Origin: a virus
Length of the DNA stretch: 25,644 bases
Virus record (IMG/VR): IMGVR_UViG_3300045118_000096
Location: 1-25,644 of that record
Direction: 5' to 3' (one strand)
Shown here: one piece after another, positions 3,993 to 24,739 of the stretch
Layout of the letters: each line of letters begins with the position of its first letter
How positions within the stretch are numbered: the first letter of the stretch is position 1
The notes under the pieces: model-generated
What the model saw: only the letters and a program-made list of their open reading frames with translations
Told to the model about the DNA's origin: nothing
Database searches by the model: none
Made by a program: the position numbers and the translations under genes

Positions 3993-4655
3993 TCATAATC
4001 CGAAAGTCGGCCTCCTGTATTGTTCTAATATTTGTTTAATCTCTTCATCCATCGCCACTTCTTTTCTAAAAGTTACTGAATATTCACCAATACTTTCACT
4101 TTGTATATTATTGCTTCCTTTACGATTATTATAAAAAGTAGCGATTAATTTCCATACTGCATATTCAAGATCACCCATATTTATATCTTCTAAAAAAGAA
4201 GTTCCATTTTTAGCGTCAAAATTATATCCTGCAATATATGTTGTTCTATAGTGTTGCGGATATTTAGAAAATACTCCTTTCTGACTATAATCATAAGGCT
4301 GCCAATTTATATCAATTGCTCCAACATAAATAATTATTCCTTGATTTAACTTAACAAAATAATCTTCGCTATCTAAACTTGTCCATGAATTAATATTTTC
4401 AATATTATCTCTTTCTTGCAAAGATGTAAAAGTAGTAACAGGATAATTTTTCAAAAGCATTTCATCTGTTCCTGTTCCATCATATACTTCATTAGTATAT
4501 GTTGTTTGTTTAAATCTCCTATCACAATATCTTTCTACAAATTCAGTAGCAGAATTAATTAATGTAGTCAAAAGCGTATCATAAGAAGTGCTTGTTATTC
4601 CTAAAAAAATTTTTGTTCTTGCTAAATTTGTTAATGCGTGATCTATTAAAGCCAT
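3993..4655 (-). CDS. Head-tail connector (gp6-like adaptor) protein
   Basis: A 220-residue protein of the phage gp6-like head-tail connector / DNA-packaging adaptor type, which forms a ring beneath the portal. The N-terminal part is helical (ALTNLARTKIFLGI, then LLTTLINSATEFVERYCDRR), matching the family pattern of two helices ending in a Cys/Arg-rich turn. A following YPV segment (LLKNYPVTTFTSLQ) is also typical, as is a late helix before a basic region (EYAVWKLIATFYNNRKGS). The order of this gene, a stopper-type gene and a gp10-like gene is standard. Its ATG at 4655 is close behind the preceding gene and lacks a Shine-Dalgarno. Confidence 0.84.
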   Translation of the reverse strand: MALIDHALTNLARTKIFLGITSTSYDTLLTTLINSATEFVERYCDRRFKQTTYTNEVYDGTGTDEMLLKNYPVTTFTSLQERDNIENINSWTSLDSEDYFVKLNQGIIIYVGAIDINWQPYDYSQKGVFSKYPQHYRTTYIAGYNFDAKNGTSFLEDINMGDLEYAVWKLIATFYNNRKGSNNIQSESIGEYSVTFRKEVAMDEEIKQILEQYRRPTFGL

Positions 4656-8900: not shown

Positions 8901-9832
8901 ATAACACCTCCTTTCTTTTTGCTAAGAACAATTGCTTGTTCCACAGCTTTATCAACTACCCGCAAAGCCTTTAAAATTAAATGCTTATTGCGTTTTTTAG
9001 CCTGTCGGGCCACGACCTTTTCATTTTTATTTAAAGTGTATTTTATATAAGCAGTCGCTGTTTCAACTTTTTTAATATGTTCAATTAATTTCTTAGTATC
9101 ATCTATATAATTCTTTTCTGAACATTTTTTACGACAAGTTGAAAATGCAATAGCTTGTACTTGTTTATCATCCATATCAGGATTTTCTTTTTTAATTTCT
9201 GGTATTTTTCGAGAAACACAATCTTGTTCTGATTCTCCATCCATCCGACAAGCTGGAGATTTTATTTCTTTTTGTTCTTTAGGTATACAAACCATTTCAC
9301 CATTATCACCCATTTCCATTATTCCTTCTTTACCATTATCCATTGTGCATTTGTCTCCTTTTTTAACTTTAATATAAGTTTTTAATTCATTACAAAATGA
9401 TTTATATTCCCTACTTACTAATGCCTGTTGATTAGCTGGCACATTAACAACACTGATTTCTAATAATTCAGCTTCTGTCGTTCTACCTTTATCATCAAAA
9501 GACTTAGGTATATAACCAACAGAAAAAGCATTTAAAAATCCACCTTTCATTAATTTACTTACTTGTTCTGCAAATGGGTTTTCTTTTTCAGCAAATATCG
9601 CATCAAATTCAAGCATTCCATTTTTATTGTTGATATTAACTATTTTCCCAATCGGCAGACTGTGTACATCATGAGACCATAAAAGCAAAGGATTTTTAAC
9701 ATAATTATTATAATCCCACGCTTCATTCATAATCATATCGCCATCTCTATCTTCCATTGAAGTAGAAGCAATAGCATGAATTTCGCCACTTTCCTTTATG
9801 TTTTTTACATAAGATTTTAAATGTTTGAGCAT
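8897..9832 (-). CDS. Prohead protease (HK97 / S78 family) with Cys-motif tail
   Basis: A 311-residue capsid maturation serine protease that cuts the delta region of the capsid protein. The N-terminal ~140 residues match the family: STSMEDRDGDMI near residue 23, LLLWSHDVHSLPIGK with the likely catalytic His54, NAFSVGYIP with the likely catalytic Ser104, and LLEISVVNVPANQQAL. After this comes a basic linker and a Cys-containing segment (CRMDGESEQDCVSRKIPEIK ... AFSTCRKKC) near residues 200-240. As I recall, this motif is found appended to various phage head proteins; it may bind metal. The last ~60 residues are very basic. It overlaps the capsid gene by 4 nt, and its own start at 9832 lies just below a promoter and a terminator. 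Confidence 0.9.
   Translation of the reverse strand: MLKHLKSYVKNIKESGEIHAIASTSMEDRDGDMIMNEAWDYNNYVKNPLLLWSHDVHSLPIGKIVNINNKNGMLEFDAIFAEKENPFAEQVSKLMKGGFLNAFSVGYIPKSFDDKGRTTEAELLEISVVNVPANQQALVSREYKSFCNELKTYIKVKKGDKCTMDNGKEGIMEMGDNGEMVCIPKEQKEIKSPACRMDGESEQDCVSRKIPEIKKENPDMDDKQVQAIAFSTCRKKCSEKNYIDDTKKLIEHIKKVETATAYIKYTLNKNEKVVARQAKKRNKHLILKALRVVDKAVEQAIVLSKKKGGVI
8905..8914 (-). promoter_or_regulatory. Strong Shine-Dalgarno of major capsid gene
   Basis: The coding strand reads AAAGGAGGTG ending 4 nt before the ATG at 8900; the GGAGG core is 6 nt from the start. It is embedded in the last codons of the protease gene. Nearly all other structural genes here have no such motif, so this site probably raises capsid translation selectively. 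Confidence 0.88.
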
Positions 9833-9841
9833 AAATTTTAA

Positions 9842-9875
9842 TAAAAAAAGACGGAAAAATACTATTTTTCCGTCT
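9842..9875 (-). terminator. Intrinsic terminator before protease gene
   Basis: A perfect 11-bp stem (AGACGGAAAAA at 9875-9865 with TTTTTCCGTCT at 9859-9849), a 5-nt loop and a following T7 run on the minus strand. It ends 10 nt before the protease start codon. It is textbook in form; unusually, it lies downstream of the promoter at 9905-9933 rather than upstream. Confidence 0.88.
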
Positions 9876-9904
9876 ATTTCGGTTAAGATAAATTGTTAAT
9901 TATT

Positions 9905-9933
9905 ATAATAAAGTATTAATAAAATTTTGTCAA
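9905..9933 (-). promoter_or_regulatory. Sigma-70-like promoter ahead of protease/capsid operon
   Basis: TTGACA at 9933-9928, a 17-nt spacer and TATTAT at 9910-9905 on the minus strand. The -35 box begins 1 nt after the stop of the minor head gene. An alternative TATAAT at 9907-9902 would need a 20-nt spacer. Transcription should start near 9897, about 20 nt before the terminator stem. Confidence 0.7.
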
Positions 9934-12088: not shown

Positions 12089-12125
12089 AAAAAAAGCAGA
12101 AAAATACTAATAATTTCTGCTTTTT
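12089..12125 (-). terminator. Intrinsic terminator before portal gene
   Basis: A 12-bp perfect stem formed by 12125-12114 (AAAAAGCAGAAA) and 12102-12091 (TTTCTGCTTTTT), an 11-nt loop, and a T7 run on the minus strand. It ends about 9 nt above the portal ATG. Flanking A and T runs would also make it work on the opposite strand. It follows, rather than precedes, the promoter at 12145-12172. Confidence 0.85.
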
Positions 12126-12144: not shown

Positions 12145-12172
12145 ATAATACACTAAATAATATATAAGTCAA
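12145..12172 (-). promoter_or_regulatory. Sigma-70-like promoter ahead of portal operon
   Basis: TTGACT at 12172-12167, a 16-nt spacer and TATTAT at 12150-12145 on the minus strand. The -35 box lies within the last codons of the upstream 71-residue gene. The predicted start is near 12138, about 13 nt before the terminator stem. The region after the -10 box resembles the matching stretch of the promoter at 9905-9933. Confidence 0.62.
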
Positions 12173-12368
12173 GTTTATCATTAAAATCATTCATCTTATC
12201 AAAAAGAACTGATTTTTTTGTTTCTTCCATTGAAATTGGTGTACCATTATATATTTGCAAATTGGATATTTCTCCAAATTTTAAATGGCGACAATATAAT
12301 ATAAAATTTAATTCAGATTTATTTACTTCTATACTATATTTCTTATCACCATCATAAATATATTTCAT
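12153..12368 (-). CDS. Small hypothetical protein at end of sugar cassette
   Basis: A 71-residue protein (MKYIYDGDKKYSIEVNKSEL...) that I do not recognise. It has short strand-like segments and charged stretches and no Cys cluster, signal or membrane segment. It overlaps the upstream glycosyltransferase gene by 4 nt (ATGA), so it is translationally coupled to the sugar cassette and is its last member. Its 3' end contains the -35 element of the portal promoter. A role in glycan modification is only suggested by its position. Confidence 0.6.
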   Translation of the reverse strand: MKYIYDGDKKYSIEVNKSELNFILYCRHLKFGEISNLQIYNGTPISMEETKKSVLFDKMNDFNDKLDLYII

Positions 12369-13198
12369 AAACTTTCTATTAATTTAACATATTGATTAAC
12401 TGATAATTTAATATCATATAATTCATGTAATTCTTTTTGTCGCATTAATACTTCTTTATTTCTTTCATTTGGATCAATAAATTTTTCAACATCTTCAACG
12501 CTAATTGCTACTGGATTTCCCAATGCCCATGATATAATCGTTTTATTATTGCTTTTAAACTTAAAGTTTTTTTCCATAAAATTTGGATTCAAAACAAAAT
12601 CACAATTTCTAATATGATTATATGCTGTTGTATATTCCCATACTATATTTAATATATTAACTCCATAATAGTTTAATGGAATAAAATCACGATTACCAAT
12701 TACATGCAATTTAAGTTTATTTTTTGAAACTGCTGGTAAAATCATATTTAATAATTGATCAGCATTATGAACATATCCAAACCAACAAACAATCTCTGCA
12801 TTTTTTTCATGATGCTTAACTTCTTTTGGAAAAGAATTAAAATCCAATCTATCAGGAATAGTAATAACTGGAATATTTACATATTGTTTTATAATATTAG
12901 TCAATGCATCAGTAGAACAAGTTATTGCATCTATATATGGCTCTATTTCTTTTATAAGAAAATCATCACACATCCAATCAGGATCACATAAATCCAAAAT
13001 CTTTTTACCTTTAAAGCTCTTCATATGATCTTTCCAATATACTTTTTGATAAATCATCACGTCTGATTTTTGACCATTAGTCCATAATTTAGCTTCTGGC
13101 CAATTATTAACTAACCAATCACCTCTTATAATAGAACTTCCTATTTTTCCTTTTTCTCTACCATGAAATTTTTCAAAAGTTAAAACACTTATTTTCAT
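12365..13198 (-). CDS. Glycosyltransferase-like protein (GT-B type, short)
   Basis: A 277-residue protein resembling the GT-B glycosyltransferases found in phage and capsule loci. Visible features are an N-terminal strand (MKISVLTFEKF), a DLCDPDW motif near residue 90, an AITCSTDALTNII segment typical of the 'suspicion that others see a trace' acceptor-side domain, a VCWFGYVHNADQLL strand-turn that resembles the GT4 'xxGRxxxxKG' hinge position, and KTIISWALGNPVAI near residue 220 where GT4 enzymes have their 'EAMAxGxPV' motif. It would transfer a sugar from a nucleotide donor to a glycan or protein. It overlaps both neighbours by 4 nt. Some conserved donor-site residues are not obvious, so activity is less certain than the fold. 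Confidence 0.65.
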   Translation of the reverse strand: MKISVLTFEKFHGREKGKIGSSIIRGDWLVNNWPEAKLWTNGQKSDVMIYQKVYWKDHMKSFKGKKILDLCDPDWMCDDFLIKEIEPYIDAITCSTDALTNIIKQYVNIPVITIPDRLDFNSFPKEVKHHEKNAEIVCWFGYVHNADQLLNMILPAVSKNKLKLHVIGNRDFIPLNYYGVNILNIVWEYTTAYNHIRNCDFVLNPNFMEKNFKFKSNNKTIISWALGNPVAISVEDVEKFIDPNERNKEVLMRQKELHELYDIKLSVNQYVKLIESL

Positions 13199-14214
13199 TT
13201 CTTTTTTATTAATTGATTAATTAATTTTAACCAATCTTGCCTGTATCTCTCACGATTAAACAATTTTTTAGCTGTTTCTTTGCCTTTTTTACCTATTTCT
13301 ATTGCTTTTTTATAATCATTTTCTAATAAATCAACACATATTTTAGCTATTTGACTGGGATTATTTTTAACTATTATCATATTTTCTCCATTATAAACTT
13401 TATCTAAATCATGTGCTCCTTCTATTTGTATAACACAACAACCACTAAACATAGCTTCTGTTCTCGCTCTATTCATTGGTGTACGATAAGAAGTATCCAA
13501 ATAAATCAAAGAACTGCCTAATAATCGTCTATAATCATCAAATGTTTCTACTTTTTTATTAGCTTTTGCCCACATAAGACGATAATTATATTGTTCATCT
13601 AATATTCTGGCTACTTCATTCATGCATTCACGATTATAATATTTATCACAACCTCCTGGACTTAATGCAGTAAAAACTCTAGGTTCTTTCGGTAAATCCA
13701 ACCATTCTTCACTATTCATGCCATGCCAAATAGGATAACCCCAACCCCATTCTTTTTCACTAGCAGCAGTATAAGAATTAACAACCATTGTATCATCTTG
13801 TATTATTTCTTTTATCAATTTTATACATTCTATTTCTGCCTGTCTTTCTGTCATATCATTAGTCTGTAAATATTCAGGATAAACAGGACAACCATGATTA
13901 ATTATTATTCTAGGACAATCATTATATTTCCGTGTTTCATCAATTAATTCTTTCATTATTTTATATTTTCCTAAATCATGATTAGCTAATTGTTGATCAC
14001 AATTTAATATAATTAAATCATATTTATTTGGTTCATAATATGGAACAAAAAAAACATTAGGGGGTATTGGTCTTATTTTCGAAAATCTATCATCTAACCA
14101 ACTTCTATGACTATTATGCACTAAATAAAAATCTGCATCATTAATCAATGCATTGCATAAATCCCAATAATGCATTATATGCCACGTAGTAGCTAATATT
14201 TTAATTTTTTCCAT
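13195..14214 (-). CDS. Glycosyltransferase (GT-B fold)
   Basis: A 339-residue protein that looks like a GT-B glycosyltransferase. The N-terminal half carries strands typical of the acceptor domain (YDLIILNCDQQL, PRIIINHGCPV). The C-terminal half has an FTALSPGGCDKYYNRE start and a donor-site segment RTPMNRARTEAMFSGCCVIQ near residue 245, matching the GT4 'E7' motif in which a Glu contacts the nucleotide sugar. This is followed by NGENMIIVKNNPSQIA, like the usual 'NGxLVxxxDxxxLA' segment. It overlaps the upstream methyltransferase by 14 nt and the downstream gene by 4 nt. The acceptor and donor sugars cannot be read from the sequence. Confidence 0.75.
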   Translation of the reverse strand: MEKIKILATTWHIMHYWDLCNALINDADFYLVHNSHRSWLDDRFSKIRPIPPNVFFVPYYEPNKYDLIILNCDQQLANHDLGKYKIMKELIDETRKYNDCPRIIINHGCPVYPEYLQTNDMTERQAEIECIKLIKEIIQDDTMVVNSYTAASEKEWGWGYPIWHGMNSEEWLDLPKEPRVFTALSPGGCDKYYNRECMNEVARILDEQYNYRLMWAKANKKVETFDDYRRLLGSSLIYLDTSYRTPMNRARTEAMFSGCCVIQIEGAHDLDKVYNGENMIIVKNNPSQIAKICVDLLENDYKKAIEIGKKGKETAKKLFNRERYRQDWLKLINQLIKKK

Positions 14215-14674
14215 ATGGTTTTGCTTTAAAATGTATATCTAAACGATTATTAACTATTATTTCTTTTATTTCCCATGTTTTTATATTATTATCTTCATTC
14301 CATTCTTTTTTTTCCTTATAAGAAAATGCTTTAAAAGTAAATTCATCTAATTGTTTTATATGGCTTGGAATATATGCACTATCATTTTTACGATGCGGAC
14401 AAATAATATATATTTCACCTTTTGGCTCAAGTATTCTCCAACATTCATTCATAAAAAAAATAGTATCATTAAAGTGTTCGATAAAATGTGAAGAAAAAAT
14501 ATTAATACAAGAATTATCTGGTAGCGGTATTCCATTTTTCATATCCCATATTATTTCCTGTCCATAATCTTTTATATCCAACCCAATATAATCATCTTTC
14601 CCATGTCTTTGATCTTTTCTACCACATCCTACATCAAGTTTTAATCTTTTTAAAGGCAATACAATCCTATTCAT
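14201..14674 (-). CDS. Class I SAM-dependent methyltransferase
   Basis: A 157-residue Rossmann-fold methyltransferase, short but with the core motifs: motif I LKLDVGCG near residue 12, an acidic strand end (YIGLDIKDYG) for the SAM ribose, LPDNSCINIFSSHFIEHF resembling the 'xDxVxxxxxxEH' motif IV region, and RILEPKGEIYIICPH as the post-motif strand. It is of the type found in glycan loci, where it may methylate a sugar hydroxyl or an amino sugar. I chose ATG 14674 because it overlaps the upstream stop by 8 nt; an ATG at 14713 is in frame but would overlap the upstream gene by 47 nt. The extreme C-terminus is basic (KAKPYGKN). Substrate unknown. Confidence 0.82.
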   Translation of the reverse strand: MNRIVLPLKRLKLDVGCGRKDQRHGKDDYIGLDIKDYGQEIIWDMKNGIPLPDNSCINIFSSHFIEHFNDTIFFMNECWRILEPKGEIYIICPHRKNDSAYIPSHIKQLDEFTFKAFSYKEKKEWNEDNNIKTWEIKEIIVNNRLDIHFKAKPYGKN

Positions 14675-16238
14675 ACATTTTATATAATATATTTTTTGCT
14701 TTCCAGATTTCACTTATTTTATTTCTCGAATTACTATGCATATTTTCTTTAACAAAAATATCTTCTTTATAAACAAATTCAATTCTTTGATGAGAATATT
14801 TTTGTCTTATTTCTTGCGACATTCCTCCATAACAATCTATTCTTTCATTAAACATACCACCATTAACAAAATCACATTTATTAATCCAACTAAAGTTTTC
14901 AACAAAATTACTTTTATTTCCTGCTTTTTCTTTTATTAATTTATTTCCAAAATACCATTTTCCCAATAAACAATTGTTTGATACTTTATTTAAAGTATCT
15001 TCTTGAAGAATAAATCTATCATCTAAAAATAATAAAATCTGACCAATCGCTTCTATTGCTCCTAAATTACGCATTCTTGCTAACCCATATCCATTATGAT
15101 CACTTCTAATATATTTAATTGGTGTTTTAAATTTTTTTCTAGCTTCTATTACTGTTTGATAAGTTAAATCATCAGAACCATCATCACAAACAATTATTTC
15201 TTTTGCTTCATATTTATTTAATTCTATACTTAATAACAATTGTATTAATTGTTCATAACGATTATATGTCGGTACTATAATGCTTATTAATGGTTTTTTA
15301 TGTAATACTTTATGATATAGTTTTTCATGTTCTCTAGCGACTTTTAAAGATGAATAATTATTTATTGTTCTTCGTGCATTATATCTTATCTTCTCTCTTA
15401 ATTCTTTATCTTCCATTAACATCTTTAATTTATTTTCAAAGTTTTCTTCATTAAAAATGATTCCATTTTCTCCATCTTTTATTAAATCTCTAGCACTACC
15501 TTGTACAGTCGTTAAAACAGGAATACCTTTAGCCATCGCTTCTAATAATGGAAGCGTGCCAGTTTCTTTTTCATCCGTTGAATACATTACAAATACTTTC
15601 ATTTGTGCATAAATATTGTCTTTAGCAATAACAGTATTCATTTGTTCTCTTCCTATTCCACCATTAAATATAAGATTTTCTTTAGGTACTGATTCCCAAT
15701 ATCTAGGTTTGTCTATATAACCAGAGCCAATTACTTTATACCCCAATTTACCAGCAGTTTCGCATATTTTTTTAAGATTTTTATGCTCTATTACTCTGCC
15801 AATATAACCAATATATTCACCTTTTAATTCTTTAATATAATTAAATCTATTCAAATCTACTCCATGCGCAATATGATAAACATTTGAATGTTTTGTATTT
15901 AACTTTTCTGTTCCCCATTTAGTCTGGATAGTTAAAGCATCAAAACAAGACCAATCTTCCTTATCTAAAGCATAATGATTATGATGTGTTAAAATCTTTG
16001 GTATTTTTTTAAGTTCTGGCAACATTTTTATTAATTGCATAGCACTATGCCAATACTGTGCATGCCATAAATCAATACCATGTTTTAAAATAGCATTAAT
16101 TTCAAAAATACTCTGTTCTACATTTCTAGGATGTACTGGTACTTTAAAAAATTGTATATGTGGATTATTCAAGATAATATCATTAGTAATATTATCTATT
16201 GCCCAACCTAGGCAATCAGGAGTTATTAATATCTTCAT
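14667..16238 (-). CDS. Two-domain glycosyltransferase (GT4 + GT2)
   Basis: A 523-residue fusion of two glycosyltransferases. The first ~310 residues are GT4-like: an early TPDCLGWAIDNI start, IAHGVDLNRFNYI, GYIGRVIEHKNLKKICETA, and EKETGTLPLLEAMAKGIPVL with the family's Glu-containing donor site, then DLIKDGENGIIF. The second ~210 residues are GT2/GT-A-like: PLISIIVPTYNRYEQLIQLL, EIIVCDDGSDD for the donor nucleotide, and LLFLDDRFIL in place of the usual DxD metal site. The two halves could add successive sugars to the same acceptor. It overlaps the dehydrogenase gene upstream by 23 nt. The GT2 part is short and may lack some acceptor-side elements. Confidence 0.85.
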   Translation of the reverse strand: MKILITPDCLGWAIDNITNDIILNNPHIQFFKVPVHPRNVEQSIFEINAILKHGIDLWHAQYWHSAMQLIKMLPELKKIPKILTHHNHYALDKEDWSCFDALTIQTKWGTEKLNTKHSNVYHIAHGVDLNRFNYIKELKGEYIGYIGRVIEHKNLKKICETAGKLGYKVIGSGYIDKPRYWESVPKENLIFNGGIGREQMNTVIAKDNIYAQMKVFVMYSTDEKETGTLPLLEAMAKGIPVLTTVQGSARDLIKDGENGIIFNEENFENKLKMLMEDKELREKIRYNARRTINNYSSLKVAREHEKLYHKVLHKKPLISIIVPTYNRYEQLIQLLLSIELNKYEAKEIIVCDDGSDDLTYQTVIEARKKFKTPIKYIRSDHNGYGLARMRNLGAIEAIGQILLFLDDRFILQEDTLNKVSNNCLLGKWYFGNKLIKEKAGNKSNFVENFSWINKCDFVNGGMFNERIDCYGGMSQEIRQKYSHQRIEFVYKEDIFVKENMHSNSRNKISEIWKAKNILYKMYE

Positions 16239-17043
16239 GTATTTTATTATTACTTTTTATCATTGCTTCTAACATAATAGGATTATAACCAGCTTCTTGA
16301 ACAGCTTTAACTATAGCACTTGTATCTTTAGGCAAACATTTACCTCCAAATCCAGGTTTATCAGGAAATACCATAGTATGCATTTGATCTACCCGAGGAT
16401 CAAGCGCCCACCCAGTTCTAACTGTATAATAATCTACACCTAAAACATCACATATCTTTTTCATTTCATTAGCGAATATAACTTTAACAGCAAAATAAGT
16501 ATTTTCCATATATTTAATTACTTCTGCCTCTTTAGCGCTTACTTGATAATATGTTTTCTGCGGGCCTAAAATAGGAACAAACAAATCAAGTATAGCTGAT
16601 GTATCTTTTTTATCACCGCCTAATATAAGAAAAGGAGTATTCTCCATTATTGTTTGAAAACTATAATTATGCTGATATGTAGATTCTCCAATATACTCAG
16701 GACTAAATATAATGCGTTTTCCCGTCTCTTTTTTCATTCTATCAATAAAACCAGGCTTAACAGTACTTTTAATCAAAATAAGGGGTGTTTTAAGCCATTT
16801 AAGCGTGTCCTCAACTATACTTGTATCACAATGTCCATCTTTTCCTTGCGGCGTAGGAACACAAATAACTGCTAATTCACATTCATTAATTCTATTTTCA
16901 TCATTAGTATAATAAACATTATCCAAATCTTCTATATGTTCATTAATAAAAGGATCATAAATCCAAACTTCATAATGAGTATAAAGTAATCTAGCCATAG
17001 CTTTTCCTACATAACCGTAGCCGATTACCGCTATTTTTTTCAT
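16216..17043 (-). CDS. Nucleotide-sugar dehydrogenase lacking C-terminal domain
   Basis: A 275-residue protein of the UDP-glucose/GDP-mannose dehydrogenase family, which oxidises the C6 alcohol of a nucleotide sugar to a uronic acid using NAD. The Rossmann start IGYGYVG (Gly8, 10, 13), CVPTP, STVKPG (Thr94), SPEYIGE (Glu116), the central helix VIKYMENTY (Lys177, Asn181) and GFGGKCLPKD (Cys236, Asp240) are all present, so the catalytic residues known from the family appear intact. The protein stops soon after, at the point where the UDP-binding C-terminal domain of ~130 residues normally begins; full-length enzymes have about 400-450 residues. It is either a compact variant, a partner-dependent enzyme or one with a different substrate. 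It overlaps both neighbours. Confidence 0.88.
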   Translation of the reverse strand: MKKIAVIGYGYVGKAMARLLYTHYEVWIYDPFINEHIEDLDNVYYTNDENRINECELAVICVPTPQGKDGHCDTSIVEDTLKWLKTPLILIKSTVKPGFIDRMKKETGKRIIFSPEYIGESTYQHNYSFQTIMENTPFLILGGDKKDTSAILDLFVPILGPQKTYYQVSAKEAEVIKYMENTYFAVKVIFANEMKKICDVLGVDYYTVRTGWALDPRVDQMHTMVFPDKPGFGGKCLPKDTSAIVKAVQEAGYNPIMLEAMIKSNNKIHEDINNS

Positions 17044-17624
17044 AATTTTTGTGCTTTAATTATATAACCTAAAATATTATGTTCATTAAATTCTCTAGCT
17101 GGATGCATACCTTCTATTTTCCAAATTTGTTTAAGCAATTCAAAGCTTTGTGATTTCATATAGCGTGGTATTATTTCTAATATTTCAAATCCTGTTTCTT
17201 CTATTAATTTTAATATTCCATATTTTGTATATCGTAAACAATCTTCTTTATATGGGTTATGTAATGGATAAAATGTAGGAAATGTTATATATAATAGTCC
17301 GTTTTGTTTTAATAAAGAAAGTATATTTATTAAACTAAATATTGGATCATTTATATATTCCATTACTTCTAAACAAAAAACTATATCAAAATTTTCATAA
17401 TTATTATCATTATGTTCAATAATTAAATTCTGTATATCAAAAATTATATCAACTTTATTTCCTTGATGAGGTTTCTCTAAATCCATTATCTTATAATCTT
17501 TTACATCCCAGCTTTTAGTTCTGCCTTTAATAGGTAATTGACTACCGCCAATATCTAATACACTATCAGCTTTAATGTCTAATGTTTTCAAATAATCTTC
17601 TAATTGTTCACGATAATAGCTCAT
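17040..17624 (-). CDS. SAM-dependent methyltransferase
   Basis: A 194-residue Rossmann-type methyltransferase. Motif I is SVLDIGGSQLPI near residue 21. DYKIMDLEKPHQG is the strand ending in an acidic residue. FDIVFCLEVMEYINDP matches the usual 'xDxVxxxxVLEHxxxP' motif. LKQNGLLYITFPTF is the following strand, and FEILEIIPRY is the late strand. These are methyltransferase type 11/12-like features. In a sugar cassette the likely substrate is a nucleotide sugar or polymer sugar hydroxyl, but this is inferred from context. It shares ATGA overlaps with both neighbours, fitting one translationally coupled operon. Confidence 0.82.
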   Translation of the reverse strand: MSYYREQLEDYLKTLDIKADSVLDIGGSQLPIKGRTKSWDVKDYKIMDLEKPHQGNKVDIIFDIQNLIIEHNDNNYENFDIVFCLEVMEYINDPIFSLINILSLLKQNGLLYITFPTFYPLHNPYKEDCLRYTKYGILKLIEETGFEILEIIPRYMKSQSFELLKQIWKIEGMHPAREFNEHNILGYIIKAQKL

Positions 17625-18457
17625 AGTTTTTTAAATTCATTAATATATTCATTAATCATTCTTTTAGCTGACCAATCAAAACCTTGCTTATGTAATTCTA
17701 ATATTTCTTTAGTTCCTCCAGTATTGCCAGATAAACAAGTATCTATTTGACAACCACAACAAAGTGCTTCAATAACCGTATTCGAACATGCATCATTAAA
17801 AAACGGACAAAGCAAAACATCTGTCGATCGCATAAACATTGCTATTTCTTCCTGTTTTTCCAATATACCTAGCCATTTAATATTTTCATTATCTACAAAA
17901 TCAAAATTATAAGCTATTAAATCTTCAGCAAATCTACCCATCAGCCAAAGTTCTATATCTTTATTCTTTCGCCAATATTGATGAAAATAATAAAATGCTT
18001 CATCTAATCTTTTACTATCATCTCGATTATAGCGGCTATACATATAAACTTTGCCTTTTCCTCTTGGCCATTTATTGCCATCTTTTTTAAATATATCTGT
18101 ATTTATTCCATTATAAATAACTAGACCATCTTTTTTTATAAAATATTTAATATAATCTTTAGCCCATTGGCTTTGATAAATAACTAAATCTGCCAAATTT
18201 GCATAATCAAATAAACGATTAAAACCAGTATTGCGATTCCTACTATTTTTAGGCATATTATCAACTCTGAGTACAATTCGCTTATTATCTGCTTTGGCTT
18301 TAATAACTGCCTCCCGCTCAACCATAGTAGCACCAGCAATAAAATAAATATCGCTTGTTTCATAATCACTTAACTTATAATATTTAGAAAAATAATCAAT
18401 AAAAGACCAAGCGCCACCTATTTTCTGTTTAGATTGATTAGCTATAAATATCTTCAT
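17621..18457 (-). CDS. Glycosyltransferase, GT4-type, short
   Basis: A 278-residue GT-B glycosyltransferase of the compact kind seen in phages. It shows an acceptor domain ending in LVIYQSQWAKDYIKYF, the GT4-type hinge VIYNGINTDIF near residue 117, a strand block VYMYSRYNRDDSKRLDEAFY where GT4 enzymes have 'xxGRxxxxKG', and CSNTVIEALCCGCQI near residue 230 with the donor-site Glu. GTKEILELHKQGF follows. The N-terminal domain is shorter than usual. It overlaps the upstream small gene by 20 nt and the downstream methyltransferase by 4 nt. Donor and acceptor are unknown. Confidence 0.78.
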   Translation of the reverse strand: MKIFIANQSKQKIGGAWSFIDYFSKYYKLSDYETSDIYFIAGATMVEREAVIKAKADNKRIVLRVDNMPKNSRNRNTGFNRLFDYANLADLVIYQSQWAKDYIKYFIKKDGLVIYNGINTDIFKKDGNKWPRGKGKVYMYSRYNRDDSKRLDEAFYYFHQYWRKNKDIELWLMGRFAEDLIAYNFDFVDNENIKWLGILEKQEEIAMFMRSTDVLLCPFFNDACSNTVIEALCCGCQIDTCLSGNTGGTKEILELHKQGFDWSAKRMINEYINEFKKL

Positions 18458-18644
18458 CTTCTGCTATTTTTATTATTTTTTCATATTCTTCCTGCATCTT
18501 TTTTTCGTTCGCTATCTGTTTAACAATATTCTCATTTAAACTTCCTTTAATTGTAAATTGTTCAGCAGATAATCTTTTATGTCTAATACGAGATAGATAT
18601 AATTCTTTTTTAAAACCATTTATAATTTCTTCTTTAATTTCCAT
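18438..18644 (-). CDS. Small charged hypothetical protein
   Basis: A 68-residue, mainly helical and highly charged protein (MEIKEEIINGFKKELYLSRI...), with a Glu/Lys-rich second half (NEKKMQEEYEKIIKIAEDED). I chose the ATG at 18644, 4 nt below the stop of the small membrane gene. A longer in-frame reading from 18680 would overlap that gene. No family was recognised. The position between the deacetylase and a glycosyltransferase suggests it belongs to the sugar cassette, perhaps as an accessory or structural linker, but this is a guess. Confidence 0.62.
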   Translation of the reverse strand: MEIKEEIINGFKKELYLSRIRHKRLSAEQFTIKGSLNENIVKQIANEKKMQEEYEKIIKIAEDEDIYS

Positions 18645-18648
18645 ATAA

Positions 18649-18813
18649 TTAAAAACCATTATCTTGTTTCCATGATTCATGTTCTCTTAAGGATTCAATA
18701 ATAGCTTTTTTAATAATAATTTTAATAATCCACGCACTTAGTAATGATATTACACAAGTTAAATAATAAACTATTAATTCCAATGTTGATAATACGTTTG
18801 TTTTAAGTTTCAT
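18649..18813 (-). CDS. Small single-span membrane protein
   Basis: A 54-residue protein beginning MKLKTNVLSTLELIVYYLTC. A hydrophobic segment covers about residues 8-34 (LSTLELIVYYLTCVISLLSA, then WIIKIIIKK), flanked by lysines, followed by a short polar tail (RLREHESW-like: SLREHESWKQDNGF). One transmembrane helix is likely. It overlaps the deacetylase gene by 11 nt and is followed after 4 nt by the next gene, so it sits tightly in the operon. It could anchor a cassette enzyme at the membrane or act as a small holin-like protein; sequence gives no decision between these. Confidence 0.65.
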   Translation of the reverse strand: MKLKTNVLSTLELIVYYLTCVISLLSAWIIKIIIKKAIIESLREHESWKQDNGF

Positions 18814-19402
18814 ACTTTTTTATTAATGTTAAAAATTCTTTAAATTTATTCCAATATTCAAACTTATCTATTTCCCAAGCATGCCCCCAAATATGAAAAT
18901 CAATATCTTTTAAATCTTTAGTTTTTTCAATCATATATTTACCATAATCAAACCAGTTTTTCCCATTATATTCAGCTCTATCATAAATATGCAATGTAGT
19001 TTTTATAGCATAATTATCCACATTATATAAATAACCAACATCCACCGTTCTTGCATATTTATATTTTGCTTTCTTAACTAATTCTTTTGTTGTTTCATTA
19101 TATTTTCCTTTTGGATAAGCAAACCATTCTATTTTCTTATGAATTGCAATCTCAATCAATTTTTTGCATTCAACTATTTCATATCTCTGTAATTCCATAG
19201 ACAATAATCTTAAAACAGGATGATTAATTGTATGTCCACCCAATTCATGTCCCTTAGAATCAAGCCATCTTACTTGCCCTTCCGCTATTGGATTATTAAC
19301 CTTGTCAATAAAAAATATAGCCTTGATGTTAAATTCAGCTAAAAGATTAGCTAATTTATAATTTTCTTCACAATAATCATCAAAACTAAATATAAATTTC
19401 AT
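18803..19402 (-). CDS. Polysaccharide deacetylase (NodB-like)
   Basis: A 199-residue protein of the carbohydrate esterase 4 / NodB type, which removes N- or O-acetyl groups from polysaccharides using a divalent metal. Motifs in order are FIFSFDDY (Asp8, Asp9: catalytic base and metal ligand), HELGGHTINHP (His57, His61: metal ligands), WFAYPKGKYNE (groove motif with the Arg position replaced by Lys), and HIWGHAWEI near residue 170 (the usual late His motif). No signal peptide is seen, so it would act in the cytoplasm or be released by lysis. It overlaps TerL by 4 nt (ATGA), showing that the sugar cassette is transcribed with the terminase genes. Confidence 0.88.
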   Translation of the reverse strand: MKFIFSFDDYCEENYKLANLLAEFNIKAIFFIDKVNNPIAEGQVRWLDSKGHELGGHTINHPVLRLLSMELQRYEIVECKKLIEIAIHKKIEWFAYPKGKYNETTKELVKKAKYKYARTVDVGYLYNVDNYAIKTTLHIYDRAEYNGKNWFDYGKYMIEKTKDLKDIDFHIWGHAWEIDKFEYWNKFKEFLTLIKKYET

Positions 19403-20646
19403 AATATAAATAATTGCGGTTCTTTTTTATCCCTTAACGCTTTAGACATTAACATTAATGCTGTAACATCATCATCATGTAATCCTTCTGGTGCGCCATA
19501 TCTAAACTTGCCAGTTGCCATTTGCTCATATTGATAATACTCCAATTCAGCGATACAATTCTTATCTTCAGCAGGAATAAATATATTTTCATTTTCTAAA
19601 TCTACCGCTAATCCTTTTACTAATTCATTCTTGCTTTCTGTAGTAAATTTAAACGCTTGTAAATTCAATCCCATATTAGTTAAATCATCAAATATTGGAT
19701 CACCAACTCCCGTACTATCAATCAAACCAAATGGATTATTATACTTATCAGCCACCAATTTAATTCTTGTCTTAATTAAACTCCAATCTAATTGATTAAA
19801 TCTATCAGTAAATACTACCTGCTTAGTATCAACTCTTCCTATTTTAATAACCGTAAAATCCTGATGTTTAGCAAGATCAATTCCCATAACATATTGGCAT
19901 CCTTCTTTATATTTTTCATAAATTCCTTTAATACAATTATTTATATTACGAAATACTTGTCCTGCTCCTTCAATAAACTCTGCTAATATTTCCTGCCTTT
20001 TTTCAGTCTCATCCATTTCATTAGCCAAACTATCAATTTCTTCTTTAGTAATAGTATTATTGGCATAACTGCTATATCTCCAACTAGCATAATCATTATG
20101 GCCATCCTGTCCCTTCATATACATTTCATAAAACCAATTCTTGCCTTTAGGTGTGCCAATTAATACAACTCTACCATGTCTATCAATTAAAGTAGGCATT
20201 AAACTCTCTTTCCAAGCCTTAGCTTTAACCTTTCCAGCCTCATCAATAATCAATAAATCAATCCCTTTTCCTACTAATGTCTGTGGATCATCAGCAGATT
20301 TTGCTTCAATTACAGTATTTAATACCGTTTTAATTTTAAATGAACCTTTACTATTAACCAATTGTACTACCCAATTTCGCAAACGATTAACACAAACACT
20401 ATATAATTCATCCCATACTCTTTGCGTTAAATCATAATTTGGCGCTACTATCCAAATATTTTTATTTTTCTTAAAAAACTCCTTAACAATAATCTCCTCA
20501 TAAGCAACATAAAAAGTTTTACCCGACCTTCTTCCCGCTACTATCGTTTTGAACCTCGCATTGTTCTGTGCTACTTTTTTCTGCCAATCGTTTAATTCCA
20601 TTTTTAATTGTGCTCGTATTTTGTTGTAGTTCGGGTAATGAATCAT
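19399..20646 (-). CDS. terL: Terminase large subunit
   Basis: A 415-residue DNA-packaging motor with ATPase and nuclease parts. The ATPase has Walker A IVAGRRSGKT near residue 40, Walker B LLIIDEAGK near residue 135 and the coupling motif LIGTPKGKNW near residue 160. The RNase H-like nuclease carries VMGIDLAKHQDFTVIK near residue 255, GLIDSTGVGDPIFDD near residue 300 and HDDDVTALMLM near residue 395, supplying the acidic metal ligands. The start is uncertain: ATG 20646, or ATG 20601 in front of MELNDWQKKV. Both fall inside the end of the TerS gene, so 83-128 nt are read in two frames. It overlaps the deacetylase gene by 4 nt. Confidence 0.95.
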   Translation of the reverse strand: MIHYPNYNKIRAQLKMELNDWQKKVAQNNARFKTIVAGRRSGKTFYVAYEEIIVKEFFKKNKNIWIVAPNYDLTQRVWDELYSVCVNRLRNWVVQLVNSKGSFKIKTVLNTVIEAKSADDPQTLVGKGIDLLIIDEAGKVKAKAWKESLMPTLIDRHGRVVLIGTPKGKNWFYEMYMKGQDGHNDYASWRYSSYANNTITKEEIDSLANEMDETEKRQEILAEFIEGAGQVFRNINNCIKGIYEKYKEGCQYVMGIDLAKHQDFTVIKIGRVDTKQVVFTDRFNQLDWSLIKTRIKLVADKYNNPFGLIDSTGVGDPIFDDLTNMGLNLQAFKFTTESKNELVKGLAVDLENENIFIPAEDKNCIAELEYYQYEQMATGKFRYGAPEGLHDDDVTALMLMSKALRDKKEPQLFIL

Positions 20647-20962
20647 AAAAATCGTCTATTTCTTCTTTATATTTATCAATATGTAAATTTTGGTCAGGCA
20701 TTCCATCAAGATAATTCCATATCAACTTAATTATAGTAGCATCCTGGTCAGCAATCGCTTTTTTCAAAATAGCCTTTACAAATAATTCCTCATAAGTATG
20801 TTTCCCGCCTTCTGATATTTTTTCTAATGCTTCCCTAACTTTAGTAGTAAAATTTTTAACGCCAGGAGGTCTTCCAGGTCCCCCAGAATTTCCTTTAGCA
20901 AACAAACCAGTTCCAGGTTCTTTTAACGGTTTTACTTCGGATTTAATCCCGCTTTCATTCAT
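20519..20962 (-). CDS. terS: Terminase small subunit (putative)
   Basis: A 147-residue protein that would recognise the packaging site and recruit TerL. The N-terminal part carries GNSGGPGRPPGVKNFTTKVR, a basic Gly/Pro/Arg motif found at the start of many small-terminase and related phage DNA-binding proteins. This is followed by two predicted helices (TYEELFVKAILKKAIADQ and DATIIKLIWNYLDGM), a typical small-subunit pattern. The C-terminal ~40 residues are read from DNA that also codes the N-terminus and Walker A of TerL in another frame. It overlaps the upstream coiled-coil gene by 4 nt. Location immediately before terL supports the call. Confidence 0.8.
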   Translation of the reverse strand: MNESGIKSEVKPLKEPGTGLFAKGNSGGPGRPPGVKNFTTKVREALEKISEGGKHTYEELFVKAILKKAIADQDATIIKLIWNYLDGMPDQNLHIDKYKEEIDDFYDSLPELQQNTSTIKNGIKRLAEKSSTEQCEVQNDSSGKKVG

Positions 20963-21192
20963 AATTTTATTGTCTTTTTAAGAGAGTCAACAGTTTCTTC
21001 TTGTTTTCCATCTGTTTTCTTTTTTTCTTCTTCTTGTTTAATTAAATCCAATAAATAAGCCTCTTGCCCCTGCAATTTAACTATTCCTTGTTCCTTTTGA
21101 TTATAAACAGCATAAATCTGTTGAGCTTCTTTAATGACTTGTTCTTTTACAGATTGTATTTTTTTTAATTCTTCTTGAAGATTAAGTTCCAT
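20959..21192 (-). CDS. Coiled-coil hypothetical protein, first gene after structured leader
   Basis: A 77-residue, strongly helical and charged protein (MELNLQEELKKIQSVKEQVI...), with heptad-like spacing of Leu, Val and Ile over most of its length and a Lys/Glu/Gln-rich tail. It is the first gene downstream of the leader RNA and terminator at 21212-21242, with the ATG 20 nt below the T-run, and overlaps terS by 4 nt. No family is recognised. It could be a packaging or scaffolding accessory, or a regulator, judging only by position. Confidence 0.65.
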   Translation of the reverse strand: MELNLQEELKKIQSVKEQVIKEAQQIYAVYNQKEQGIVKLQGQEAYLLDLIKQEEEKKKTDGKQEETVDSLKKTIKL

Positions 21193-21211
21193 AATATTGA
21201 TTTTAAATAAT

Positions 21212-21242
21212 AAAAAACCCGATTTAATTAGATTTTAATCGG
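21212..21242 (-). terminator. Intrinsic terminator of leader RNA
   Basis: A 6-bp stem (CCGATT at 21242-21237 with AATCGG at 21224-21219), a 12-nt loop, a G, and then a T6 run on the minus strand. The stem is modest. A segment at 21298-21290 (CGATTTAAT) is exactly complementary to ATTAAATCG at 21228-21220, which covers the 3' arm, so a competing antiterminator could form. Confidence 0.72.
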
Positions 21243-21410
21243 ATTTATTTAATTTTTAATATTAAATTTATGATCATTGCCTTTTTAGGATTAAATCGTA
21301 ATAAATAGATAAACCCATGTTGCAGGGAAGCTCCGTTTTTATTCGGAGCAATGAGCTAAAGCCCATGTCTTTCCCTGCTTATATGGTTTCGGAAAAAATA
21401 AATTTTCCCT
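21212..21410 (-). ncRNA. Structured ~200-nt leader / non-coding RNA
   Basis: Predicted from a promoter at 21417-21444 to the terminator at 21212-21242. By-eye fold: a 5' hairpin (GGAAAA 21408-21403 with TTTTCC 21396-21391); P0 (21389-21383 with 21318-21311, one bulged G); P1, 8 bp (GCAGGGAA 21378-21371 with TTCCCTGC 21329-21322); P2, 6 bp with a TTTA loop (ATGGGC 21366-21361 with GCTCAT 21356-21351); P3, 6 bp (GCTCCG 21349-21344 with CGGAGC 21335-21330). P1-P3 form a three-way junction with joints AGAC, T and none. The single non-Watson-Crick pair in P2 is G-T on this strand but A-C on the other, supporting this orientation. It matches no riboswitch or tRNA that I know. Confidence 0.7.
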
Positions 21411-21416
21411 ATTTTC

Positions 21417-21444
21417 ACTATATACTATTTATAATATTTGTCAA
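21417..21444 (-). promoter_or_regulatory. Sigma-70-like promoter of the leader RNA
   Basis: TTGACA at 21444-21439, a 16-nt spacer and TATAGT at 21422-21417 on the minus strand. The -35 lies inside the last codons of the HNH gene. The predicted start near 21410 coincides with the first base pairs of the 5' hairpin of the leader RNA. Confidence 0.68.
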
Positions 21445-21823
21445 TACTTTTTTGTATTAATTTTTCATATGCCAATTTCCACTTTAAATATTGCATTTTT
21501 CTATCCTTTTTACAATATTGATGCGCCCTATAATCCAGCAAATCAAAGCCAGATTTACCTAATTCTTTAATTTTAAATGCCCGATATTCATCTCTTCCTT
21601 CACCATGACCCAAATAATGATGATGATAAATACAAAACGCATTGCAATTTTCTTCATCGTATCTAGTGCTTTCATGTCTGCGAGACCAATAATGAGAAAC
21701 TTGAAGGCCACGATGATTTTGAGAATAATCTTTATGGCAAAAATCACATTTCCAATTGGCTTTTTCTCTTACATACAAAGAAAATTTAATATCAGCTTTA
21801 TTTAATTTAACTTTTCCCCACAT
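21425..21823 (-). CDS. HNH-type endonuclease-like protein
   Basis: A 132-residue protein with the Cys/His layout of phage HNH nucleases and the related NinG group. WKCDFCHKDYSQ gives a CxxC pair (Cys26, Cys29). LQVSHYWSRRHES supplies the first catalytic His (His44) and basic residues. NCNAFCIYHHHYLG supplies Cys60, Cys64 and a His cluster (67-69). This fits a metal-binding beta-beta-alpha nuclease. Phages often encode an HNH protein next to terminase, where in HK97-like phages it is needed for cutting at the packaging site. Its end overlaps the -35 of the leader-RNA promoter. A recombination role (NinG-like) is the main alternative. Confidence 0.8.
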   Translation of the reverse strand: MWGKVKLNKADIKFSLYVREKANWKCDFCHKDYSQNHRGLQVSHYWSRRHESTRYDEENCNAFCIYHHHYLGHGEGRDEYRAFKIKELGKSGFDLLDYRAHQYCKKDRKMQYLKWKLAYEKLIQKSIDKYYK

Positions 21824-21824
21824 A

Positions 21825-22202
21825 TTATTTATTCTTTAAATAATTAATTACTTCATCTATATTAACCATAATTTTATCCATAATAATATCATAATAGGCA
21901 TCGCCATCTTCACCATTTGAATTGGCAATTGCCCATAATAATCGCCTCATTTGTTGAGATTTAGTATTTTTGTTCTTAGCGATTATCTTTTTTTCTCCCT
22001 GCTCCACTTCAATATTAGAAGTAAATTTTGCCTTATAAATTAAATCATACGAACCATTTTCATTATTCTTTCGACTTACTTCATATACACCTATTTCTCC
22101 TTTAATAATCGCATAATTGGTATCGTCAATTTTACAAGGTAGTTCAGCCCCGCCTATTATCTTTAGAATATGACTGTTTATTTTTATTATTTTTAGCTCC
22201 AT
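21825..22202 (-). CDS. Hypothetical protein, phage recombination/replication-type context
   Basis: A 125-residue protein (MELKIIKINSHILKIIGGAE...) with a strand-rich first half and a helical second half. The latter has KSQQMRRLLWAIANSNGE followed by DAYYDIIMDKIMVNIDEVIN. That helical pattern, 'SQ+LR..L..x(10-15)..F..YY...M.+.I..', recurs in short proteins near phage recombination or endonuclease genes as far as I recall, with no known function. The stop is 1 nt above the start of the HNH gene. No membrane segment or Cys cluster is seen. Confidence 0.65.
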   Translation of the reverse strand: MELKIIKINSHILKIIGGAELPCKIDDTNYAIIKGEIGVYEVSRKNNENGSYDLIYKAKFTSNIEVEQGEKKIIAKNKNTKSQQMRRLLWAIANSNGEDGDAYYDIIMDKIMVNIDEVINYLKNK

Positions 22203-23820: not shown

Positions 23821-24039
23821 TTAATAACTTCCGCTCCAGCTCCTGCTCCAACTCCTGCTCCAACTCCTACTCCTGCTCCTGCCCCCGCTCCAGCTCCTGC
23901 TCCAACTCCTGCTCCAACTCCTGCTCCAACTCCTACTCCTGCTCCTGCCCCCGCTCCAGCTCCTGATCCAACTCCTGTTCCTACTCCTGCTCCTGCTCCC
24001 GCTCCATAGAGTATTAATATTAAATAATTGAATATTCAT
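23821..24039 (-). CDS. Low-complexity repeat protein (Ser-Arg/Trp reading), frame uncertain
   Basis: From ATG 24039, 2 nt below the upstream stop, this frame gives 72 residues: MNIQLFNINTLWSG followed by alternating Ser with Arg, Trp or Gly (SRSRSRNRSW, SWSRSWSRSW) and a SGSY end. Start position and operon spacing support it. Against it, the substitutions among repeat units swap Arg, Trp and Gly here. In the frame one base further they are mostly silent or Ala/Val, giving alternating Gly-Ala/Gly-Val like the Gly-alternating neighbour at 24386, but that frame has no ATG. If real, the Ser-Arg form would be strongly basic and disordered. I cannot tell which frame is translated. Confidence 0.38.
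   Translation of the reverse strand: MNIQLFNINTLWSGSRSRSRNRSWIRSWSGGRSRSRSWSRSWSRSWSRSWSGGRSRSRSWSRSWSRSWSGSY
23830..24006 (-). repeat. G+C-rich hexamer repeat array
   Basis: About 29 tandem hexamers of the form GGAGCN or GGAGTN (minus strand), with a second-order period of 66 nt: a block containing GGGGCA recurs at 23881 and 23947. Unit length is a multiple of three, so copy number can vary without shifting the frame. All units are much richer in G+C than the surrounding DNA. Confidence 0.92.
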
Positions 24040-24041
24040 AT

Positions 24042-24362
24042 TTATTTCTGTTCACGAGGCAAATCTTTTTTCCATTCAAAAGCATCAATAATTGATTCAA
24101 TGTTTAAATACATTTCAACATCAACAGGTTCTACTTCATCTAATGTTCCTTCCATAATTGCTTGTCTGAATCTTCCACTATCCGCAATCCAAGCGGCATC
24201 TTCCAAAACTAGAAAATTACCTACTATTTTTTTTACTTTTCCAGTAGCATGATAAGTTACAGTTCTAATAAAATACTTTTCTCCTACTTTAAAAGGAATT
24301 TCTTTTTTTTGATTGAATAATTTTTCAGTTAATTGCTCAGCGATTAATTCTTCTAAATTCAT
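24042..24362 (-). CDS. Conserved phage hypothetical protein (LEDAAWIADSGRF type)
   Basis: A 106-residue protein. The core, YFIRTVTYHATGKVKKIVGN followed by FLVLEDAAWIADSGRF and a GTLDEVEPV segment, matches a pattern I recall from many phage genomes ('xRTVTxxxTGxxxxxxxxxxxLxDAAWIADTGRFxxxL..G..xEVEP'), always without known function. It is a compact strand-rich domain behind a helical N-terminus (MNLEELIAEQLTEKLF). It is sandwiched between the two low-complexity repeat genes, and its leader is the same 25 nt as that of the gene at 25064, so the four genes probably travel together. Confidence 0.75.
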   Translation of the reverse strand: MNLEELIAEQLTEKLFNQKKEIPFKVGEKYFIRTVTYHATGKVKKIVGNFLVLEDAAWIADSGRFRQAIMEGTLDEVEPVDVEMYLNIESIIDAFEWKKDLPREQK

Positions 24363-24384
24363 ACTTTTATTATTTATTTAATTA
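24360..24384 (-). repeat. 25-nt leader repeat, copy 1
   Basis: The 25 bases ending at the start codon of the gene at 24362 (read on the minus strand, an AT-rich leader ending AATAATAAAAGTATG) are identical to 25062-25086. Both copies cover a translation start, suggesting duplicated initiation signals or a recombination scar. Confidence 0.8.
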
Positions 24385-24385
24385 T

Positions 24386-24739
24386 TTATAAAATTCCACC
24401 ATTACCATCACCGTAACCATATCCATAGCCATTATCATTACCATAACCATTACCATAACCATTACCATAGTCATTACCATCACCGTAGCCATCTCCACAA
24501 CCATCACCGTAGCCATCGCCATAACCATCTCCACAACCATCACCGTAGCCATCTCCACAACCATCACCGTAGCCATTGCTATAACCATTGCCATAACCAT
24601 TACCAAGTTTATCGCCATAGCCGTAGCCATATCCATAGCCATTACTATTACCATTACCATAACCATTACCATATTTATTTTTAATTAAAGCCATTGGATT
24701 AATAATATCTACATTATTAGCATTTCTAAAATAATTCAT
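24386..24739 (-). CDS. Gly-Tyr-rich low-complexity repeat protein
   Basis: A 117-residue protein. A unique 28-residue N-terminus (MNYFRNANNVDIINPMALIK...) is followed by ~85 residues in which every second residue is Gly: GYGNGYG, GYGYGYGYGD, and copies of GDGCGDGY. Gly codons use GGT, GGC and GGA and Tyr uses TAT and TAC, so variation is mostly silent in this frame, which argues that the protein sequence is selected. A second frame through the repeats (Val-Met) has no such property. Four Cys lie in the D-G-C-G units. It starts 1 nt beyond the stop of the 24741 gene. Possible roles are a flexible coat or adhesive protein, a condensate-forming protein or a metal binder; none is proven. Confidence 0.8.
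   Translation of the reverse strand: MNYFRNANNVDIINPMALIKNKYGNGYGNGNSNGYGYGYGYGDKLGNGYGNGYSNGYGDGCGDGYGDGCGDGYGDGYGDGCGDGYGDGNDYGNGYGNGYGNDNGYGYGYGDGNGGIL
24392..24668 (-). repeat. Gly-alternating hexamer repeat array
   Basis: Tandem hexamers GGN(TAT/AAT/GAT/TGT) on the minus strand, with a 24-nt second-order unit encoding GDGCGDGY repeated at least three times between 24478 and 24586. The repeat retains frame. Confidence 0.9.

Follow-up and report, generated by a model that had tools for sequence, protein, structure and literature searches.

Between the early and the late genes of the phage studied here lies a short unit with a promoter, a strongly folding core, and a terminator, which raises the question of what a terminated leader would do directly ahead of the packaging operon. 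The gene timing of phages of little-studied uncultured hosts is almost unknown. Our preferred answer, to which we give about an even chance, is that the unit, here called RNA1, is a late-operon leader that acts as an attenuation or antitermination checkpoint, laid out like lambda PR′ and with its core working in cis. RNA1 is probably a variant of an already known sort of phage control element.

RESULTS

Genomic setting of RNA1

The phage is an IMG/VR record, and "the window" denotes the whole 25,644-nt stretch of it that was analyzed. The minus strand carries all main genes, and in this direction the unit runs from promoter through core and terminator into the small-terminase operon, with early genes (NinG) on one side and late genes (TerS/TerL) on the other (Table 1). 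The 3′ end of the ninG-like gene is overlapped by the -35 element of the promoter. Another contig from this phage, IMGVR_UViG_3300045116_000064, carries an identical unit, with 15 differing positions across the whole overlap; the window and this sister contig combined are the 31.9-kb phage referred to below. Only 4% of the phage genome is intergenic.

Some neighboring regions were also noted. Between TerL and the portal gene, window positions 12153-19402 hold glycosyltransferase, deacetylase, methyltransferase, and sugar-nucleotide dehydrogenase-like genes, a large moron-like insert that is closed by a terminator. Low-complexity repeat proteins (Gly/Asn/Tyr-rich and Arg/Ser/Trp-rich frames) are encoded at 23821-24739 in the early region. 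An assignment of 21825-22202 as NinB was unsupported. NinG lies shortly upstream of TerS in relatives too, namely, in L100 (1242-3002), which also has NinB, and in L142 (1597-4309); recombination genes are thus repeatedly found beside packaging genes in this phage group.

Table 1. Positions of the features discussed; numbering is that of the window unless a contig is named.
Feature	Position	Strand	Details
NinG/Rap-like HNH nuclease gene	21425..21823	-	last gene before the unit; phrog_5034 E 8e-15, phrog_144 E 1e-5
Promoter of RNA1	21417..21444	-	TTGACA-16-TATAGT, 11/12; transcription start inferred at ~21410
5′ hairpin of transcript	21391..21408	-	GGGAAA/UUUUCC; moderately populated, p ~0.55
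Folded core, three-way junction	21311..21389	-	P0 21389-21385/21315-21311; P1 21378-21371/21329-21322; P2 21366-21361/21356-21351; P3 21349-21344/21335-21330
30-codon ORF	21274..21366	-	MGFSSLLRIKTELPCNMGLSIYYDLILKRQ; passes through the core
A/U-rich linker, ~64 nt	21247..21310	-	CGAUUUAAU, complementary to the 3′ arm of the terminator
Intrinsic terminator	21211..21246	-	AAATCCGATT...AATCGGGTTT plus T run; 10-bp stem 21246-21215, T6 tail, -8.2 kcal/mol
77-aa coiled-coil ORF	20959..21192	-	first gene past the leader, precedes TerS and TerL; no informative family
Small terminase-type protein (DUF5681)	20519..20962	-	PF18932 E 4e-7; relatives 41-74% identity
Large terminase TerL	19399..20646	-	phrog_2 E 5e-43
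Second coding-direction terminator	12093..12123	-	closes the glycan-gene block, directly ahead of the portal gene; no strong promoter beside it
Second leader in window	9849..9933	-	TTGACA-17-TATTAT (9933); terminator 9875-9849, then prohead-protease ATG at 9832
RNA2, early-operon leader	L029:13891-14043		sister contig (G001), beyond the left end of the window; TTGCCA-17-TATAAT, structured leader, terminator, Lin1244-type replication gene

A near-consensus promoter precedes the fold

An earlier note on this DNA had placed TTGACA-16-TATAGT ahead of the fold, and this near-consensus promoter is present on the minus strand, where it is the only 11/12 site within 18-25.6 kb. Coding-strand sites of at least 11/12 number three in the phage (21444, 9933, and, on the sister contig, window-equivalent -5154), all three of them intergenic; because 0.07 such sites would be expected in intergenic gaps, the promoter at 21444 is credible. 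TTGACA promoters at the 3′ end of ninG were also found in phages with related NinG proteins (L023, TTGACA-17-TACAAT; L024, TTGACA-18-TATAAT). The initial transcribed region of RNA1 is AT-rich, so that -10-like matches there are uninformative as to a sigma-dependent, promoter-proximal pause of the Q type. Bacteroidota-type promoters (TTTG/TAnnTTTG) were considered and set aside: TANNTTTG has 24 matches genome-wide, nearly all inside genes and none in the RNA1 region.

The core folds into a stable three-way junction

The three-way junction proposed in the earlier note was borne out by free energy. For the core (21395-21300, minus strand) the computed value is -33.5 kcal/mol, whereas 200 dinucleotide shuffles give -18.0 +/- 3.0 (z -5.2; 0/200 as good), and the 199-nt transcript reaches z -5.1 against its shuffles. 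P0 has 5 bp, P1 8 bp, P2 6 bp (one of them G-U), and P3 6 bp, with pair probabilities of ~0.8-1.0 for P1-P3 and 0.6-0.8 for P0. The core is the most stable 100-nt window across the 31.9-kb phage; in deviation from their own shuffles, two to three long terminator-type hairpins elsewhere in the phage exceed it. It had also been described as a G+C-rich domain in AT-rich DNA, which is correct (0.45 in the 80-nt core versus 0.30, within the top 2.7% of windows).

Two finer points of that description fared less well. The G-U wobble in P2 had been read as proof of the strand, and this fails: the plus strand of the core folds almost equally well (-32.6 versus -33.5 kcal/mol), so the strand is assigned from the promoter, the terminator, and the direction of the genes. 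The strand exchange suggested for the ATGGG copies in P2 and P0 would be transient at most, at about nt 48-50, and gone once P2 is complete. In simulated growth of the transcript, the core is fully folded by nt 100, ~65 nt ahead of the terminator stem, and this promoter-proximal completion favors action in cis.

Inverted repeats that are equally good on both strands would also suit a dyad-rich sequence that works as DNA, namely, a cos or pac site at which terminase starts packaging. The position between the HNH/NinG-like gene and terS fits this, in parallel with HK97, whose HNH protein gp74 stimulates cleavage at cos (PMC9410871), and with HK022, where 50 bp separate the start of terS from the genome end. 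However, the contigs cross the site unbroken, the protein here is closer to NinG/Rap than to the HK97 gp74-type HNH, L100 and L142 have NinG near TerS and no comparable sequence, and both promoter and terminator would be left unexplained; we consider a packaging site very unlikely. A mobile element or MITE was a further candidate, since P0/P1 resemble terminal inverted repeats, and was rejected because the sequence is single-copy in the phage, occurs nowhere else, and shows no evident duplication of a target.

Linker, small open reading frame, and terminator

Within the linker, CGAUUUAAU can pair with the 3′ arm of the terminator, yet the fold is poorer with this pairing (-49.0) than without it (-53.4); CGAUUUAAU is a weak possible antiterminator, and among alternative RNA1 folds none competes strongly with the terminator. 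From the end of the terminator stem to the next ATG is 22 nt. A stricter terminator scan did not list 21246-21215. The earlier description of a separately promoted and terminated unit ahead of the terminase operon, with a predicted transcript of ~200 nt, holds.

The 30-codon ORF through the core invites another explanation, in which its translation would control folding and the downstream terminator in the manner of a leader-peptide attenuator. Upstream of its start lies AGGGAAAGAC (duplex -5.8 kcal/mol), and ~28 nt separate its end from the terminator stem. Against this, genes of this phage hardly use Shine-Dalgarno sites, which makes the leader peptide a weak proposal and the ORF probably a chance frame; open frames of 30 codons are not rare here, the composition of this one is unbiased, and no relative has it. 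That a leader peptide accounts for RNA1 is highly improbable. The major capsid gene (start at window 8900) has the sole perfect Shine-Dalgarno site, AAGGAGGTG (-12.9 kcal/mol), other genes having almost none.

Searches for relatives of the core

By the searches made here, the core appears to be an orphan with no known relatives. As the earlier note had supposed, it matches no known family: Rfam 15 gave nothing at the gathering score and chance matches only in a relaxed search. The blastn comparison of unit and core with public phages and plasmids returned short chance matches only. Exact-pattern scans of IMG/VR yielded 16 matches for one pattern, all of them chance apart from the same phage, and the same phage alone for a second. 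A covariance model built from one sequence, and hence insensitive to distant relatives, found none among TerL, NinG, and TerS relatives or in whole records and genomes; on 380 genomes of the Falkowbacteria phylum, its best E of 0.04 per genome is at chance level for that number. In about 400 Patescibacteria-type genomes the core was not found. The earlier note had proposed that a lack of homologous structures with compensatory changes would refute its reading. Outside the same phage these searches returned no homologue in which covariation could be counted, and the core is at most a candidate for a conserved RNA.

These searches bear on the reading in which the ~200-nt terminated RNA is itself the product, a free sRNA with RNAs or proteins of the phage or its host as targets in trans. 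A promoter and a terminator of its own and a compact, stable fold would all be expected of such an RNA, and IsrK, a terminated prophage sRNA with an mRNA as its read-through form, offers a precedent (PMC4825925). On the other side, no target was found, with pairing between RNA1 and the early leader no better than in shuffles (P 0.21); the other matches to the core are low-complexity repeats, and it is not conserved elsewhere. We regard a free sRNA as unlikely, if worth keeping in mind.

Promoter-terminator leaders recur in this phage and its relatives

Relatives share the promoter-terminator leader with this phage but lack the fold. Downstream of each of the three strong coding-strand promoters in the phage is a terminator, 16-25 nt ahead of the ATG, and relatives retrieved through TerS show the same order of promoter, terminator, and ATG. 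One such leader (L102/G407; TTGACA-18-TAAAAT) heads an operon of zinc-protein, ParB-methyltransferase, TerS, and TerL genes; another (L100/G405; TAGACA-18-TATAAT) is located after TerL; and G412 has leaders ahead of an HNH gene and of a protease gene (L120, near 13508-13638). In the leaders at window 9933-9832, in G412, at 1458 in G407, and at 4401 in G405, the terminator follows within ~25-60 nt and the ATG 8-31 nt later. The design thus recurs in phages with a DUF5681-type TerS, in two of them before the prohead-protease gene.

Across 11 records, 8 of 15 free promoters had a terminator at most 180 nt downstream, where 3.4 were expected (P 0.008), an expectation drawn from random intergenic points with a permissive terminator scan. 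The reverse order, terminator and then promoter, was at chance level in the same records (3 seen versus 2.3 expected). The enrichment is modest. The closest arrangement before TerS is that of L102, where only a 33-nt stretch and a terminator follow the promoter, so that the three-way junction is this phage's own addition. As this best-matching late leader has no core, the arrangement can do without one.

The order of elements also bears on whether RNA1 is plain punctuation, its terminator closing the early operon, its promoter opening the late one, and the core being a hairpin-rich 3′ untranslated stretch with no regulatory part. From the ninG stop (21425) to the RNA1 terminator there is no other terminator, and 21246-21215 may be merely the end of the early operon; stable hairpins end other genes too (7565-7451 after the capsid gene; 1786-1730), and the core is unconserved. 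But with the promoter ahead of the terminator, transcripts from it must run into that terminator, and the order is repeated at several loci spread over several phages; a terminator also has no need of a three-way junction with z -5. Punctuation of this kind is, to our minds, unlikely as well.

The hairpins just mentioned, at 7565-7451 right after the capsid gene and at 1786-1730 in a tail-gene gap, are very stable and have no T runs; perhaps they are mRNA stabilizers or processing sites. Late transcription must pass the terminator at 12123-12093, which precedes the portal gene, unless another promoter serves that gene.

The early operon has an attenuator-like leader

The leader of the early operon, RNA2, is predicted to be a bistable or pseudoknotted attenuator. 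Its 5′ arm GAAGGCAAAAAGCGGU pairs with ACCGCUAUGCCUUC in the terminator loop, and in folding of the growing transcript the antiterminator (-26) forms first, after which the terminator (-32) wins. Leaders in G407 (L113) and G405 (L111) have the topology of RNA2 with unrelated sequence, the former between a transglycosylase-type gene and a DnaD-type helicase-loader gene, the latter downstream of a small holin-like membrane gene (recognized by eye; no family match). The duplexes of 5′ arm and loop in RNA2, G407, and G405 reach -22.7, -21.1, and -19.9 kcal/mol against about -9 in shuffles, of which 0, 0, and 1 of 500 did as well; the same test on RNA1 was negative (P 0.38). Nothing else points as strongly to leader attenuation as a working principle in these phages as this independent recurrence does, and we rate the leader architecture and the RNA2 class as more worthy of attention than the RNA1 fold.

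DISCUSSION

A proposed checkpoint ahead of the late operon

From what was computed, namely, the fold, the above-chance promoter, the terminator, their order, and the recurrence of such leaders, we infer transcription, termination efficiency, regulated read-through, and a role for the core. RNA polymerase would start at the 21444 promoter and make a short folded RNA, and much of it would stop at the terminator ~200 nt on, leaving a ~200-nt RNA as the default state. Expression of the TerS, TerL, portal, and capsid genes would require that termination be overcome. The core would fold while the polymerase is still promoter-proximal, so that action in cis is most likely; it may itself act on the elongating polymerase, as put does, or serve as a dock for an antitermination factor.

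Several observations speak for such a checkpoint. The order of promoter, terminator, and ATG is the reverse of ordinary punctuation, the early operon is also headed by a bistable attenuator leader (RNA2), and the position between the NinG-like gene and the terminase genes matches the lambda late promoter layout. The terminator before the portal gene would be easier to understand if the late polymerase were terminator-resistant. Counted against it are the core without a homologue, L102 without a core, the lack of a fold competing strongly with the terminator, and the modest enrichment. No Q-like or other antiterminator was recognized among the upstream proteins (PHROGs, Pfam) in the contigs, which lack part of the early region.

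If nearly every strong promoter meets a terminator ahead of its first gene, temporal control in these phages would work by attenuation or antitermination, not by promoter choice. In the boldest version, phages of probably Patescibacteria-like hosts would run early and late expression through leader terminators that separate each main promoter from the first gene it serves, RNA1 would be a new protein-free three-way-junction antitermination RNA giving read-through over ~26 kb, and the RNA2 class would be a new family of pseudoknotted attenuators. We think all of this together quite unlikely.

Comparison with known systems

The phi29 packaging RNA, named in the earlier note as an analogue, shares with RNA1 a three-way junction close to packaging genes. 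The analogy fails, as this phage has a canonical TerL (phrog_2) and a DUF5681 TerS, not a phi29-type motor, and gives no Rfam match. Phage-associated leader motifs in Rfam (manA, wcaG, and c4, for example) are structured RNAs linked with phage genes (PMC2864571), and RNA1 matches none of this type at gathering or relaxed thresholds. IsrK of the Salmonella prophage Gifsy-1 has its own promoter and terminator and reads through into the downstream mRNA (PMC4825925), all features that RNA1 would share; IsrK acts on antiterminator expression, whereas neither a matching gene nor a matching pairing was found in this phage.

The lambda 6S leader is ~200 nt long. The positional precedent of 6S and PR′-tR′, also raised before, matches in layout: in lambda pR′-tR′ as in RNA1, a ninG-type gene is followed by a promoter, a terminated leader of roughly 200 nt, and an intrinsic terminator directly ahead of late genes. 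In lambda, loading of Q makes use of a DNA element and a pause (PMC7171158), whereas in this phage an RNA fold is prominent. The late operon also starts here with terminase and not with lysis, and no Q was recognized.

The put RNA exerts antitermination in cis through the zinc-binding domain of the RNA polymerase beta′ subunit. With putL and putR of HK022, RNA1 shares a promoter-proximal folded RNA of ~70-80 nt, two adjacent hairpins, and terminators downstream to pass (PMC9378689). Of the likeness to put that had been suggested, the two adjacent hairpins stand and a further structural similarity does not: a search of the HK022 genome with the one-sequence covariance model gave no match, and put has no closing helix (PMC9378689). 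The put RNAs are two open stem-loops in early operons, whereas RNA1 has the closing helices P0 and P1. To our knowledge, put is the only well-characterized RNA-based processive antiterminator of phages. If RNA1 acted in this way, a second, structurally different RNA antiterminator would be a real addition beside it.
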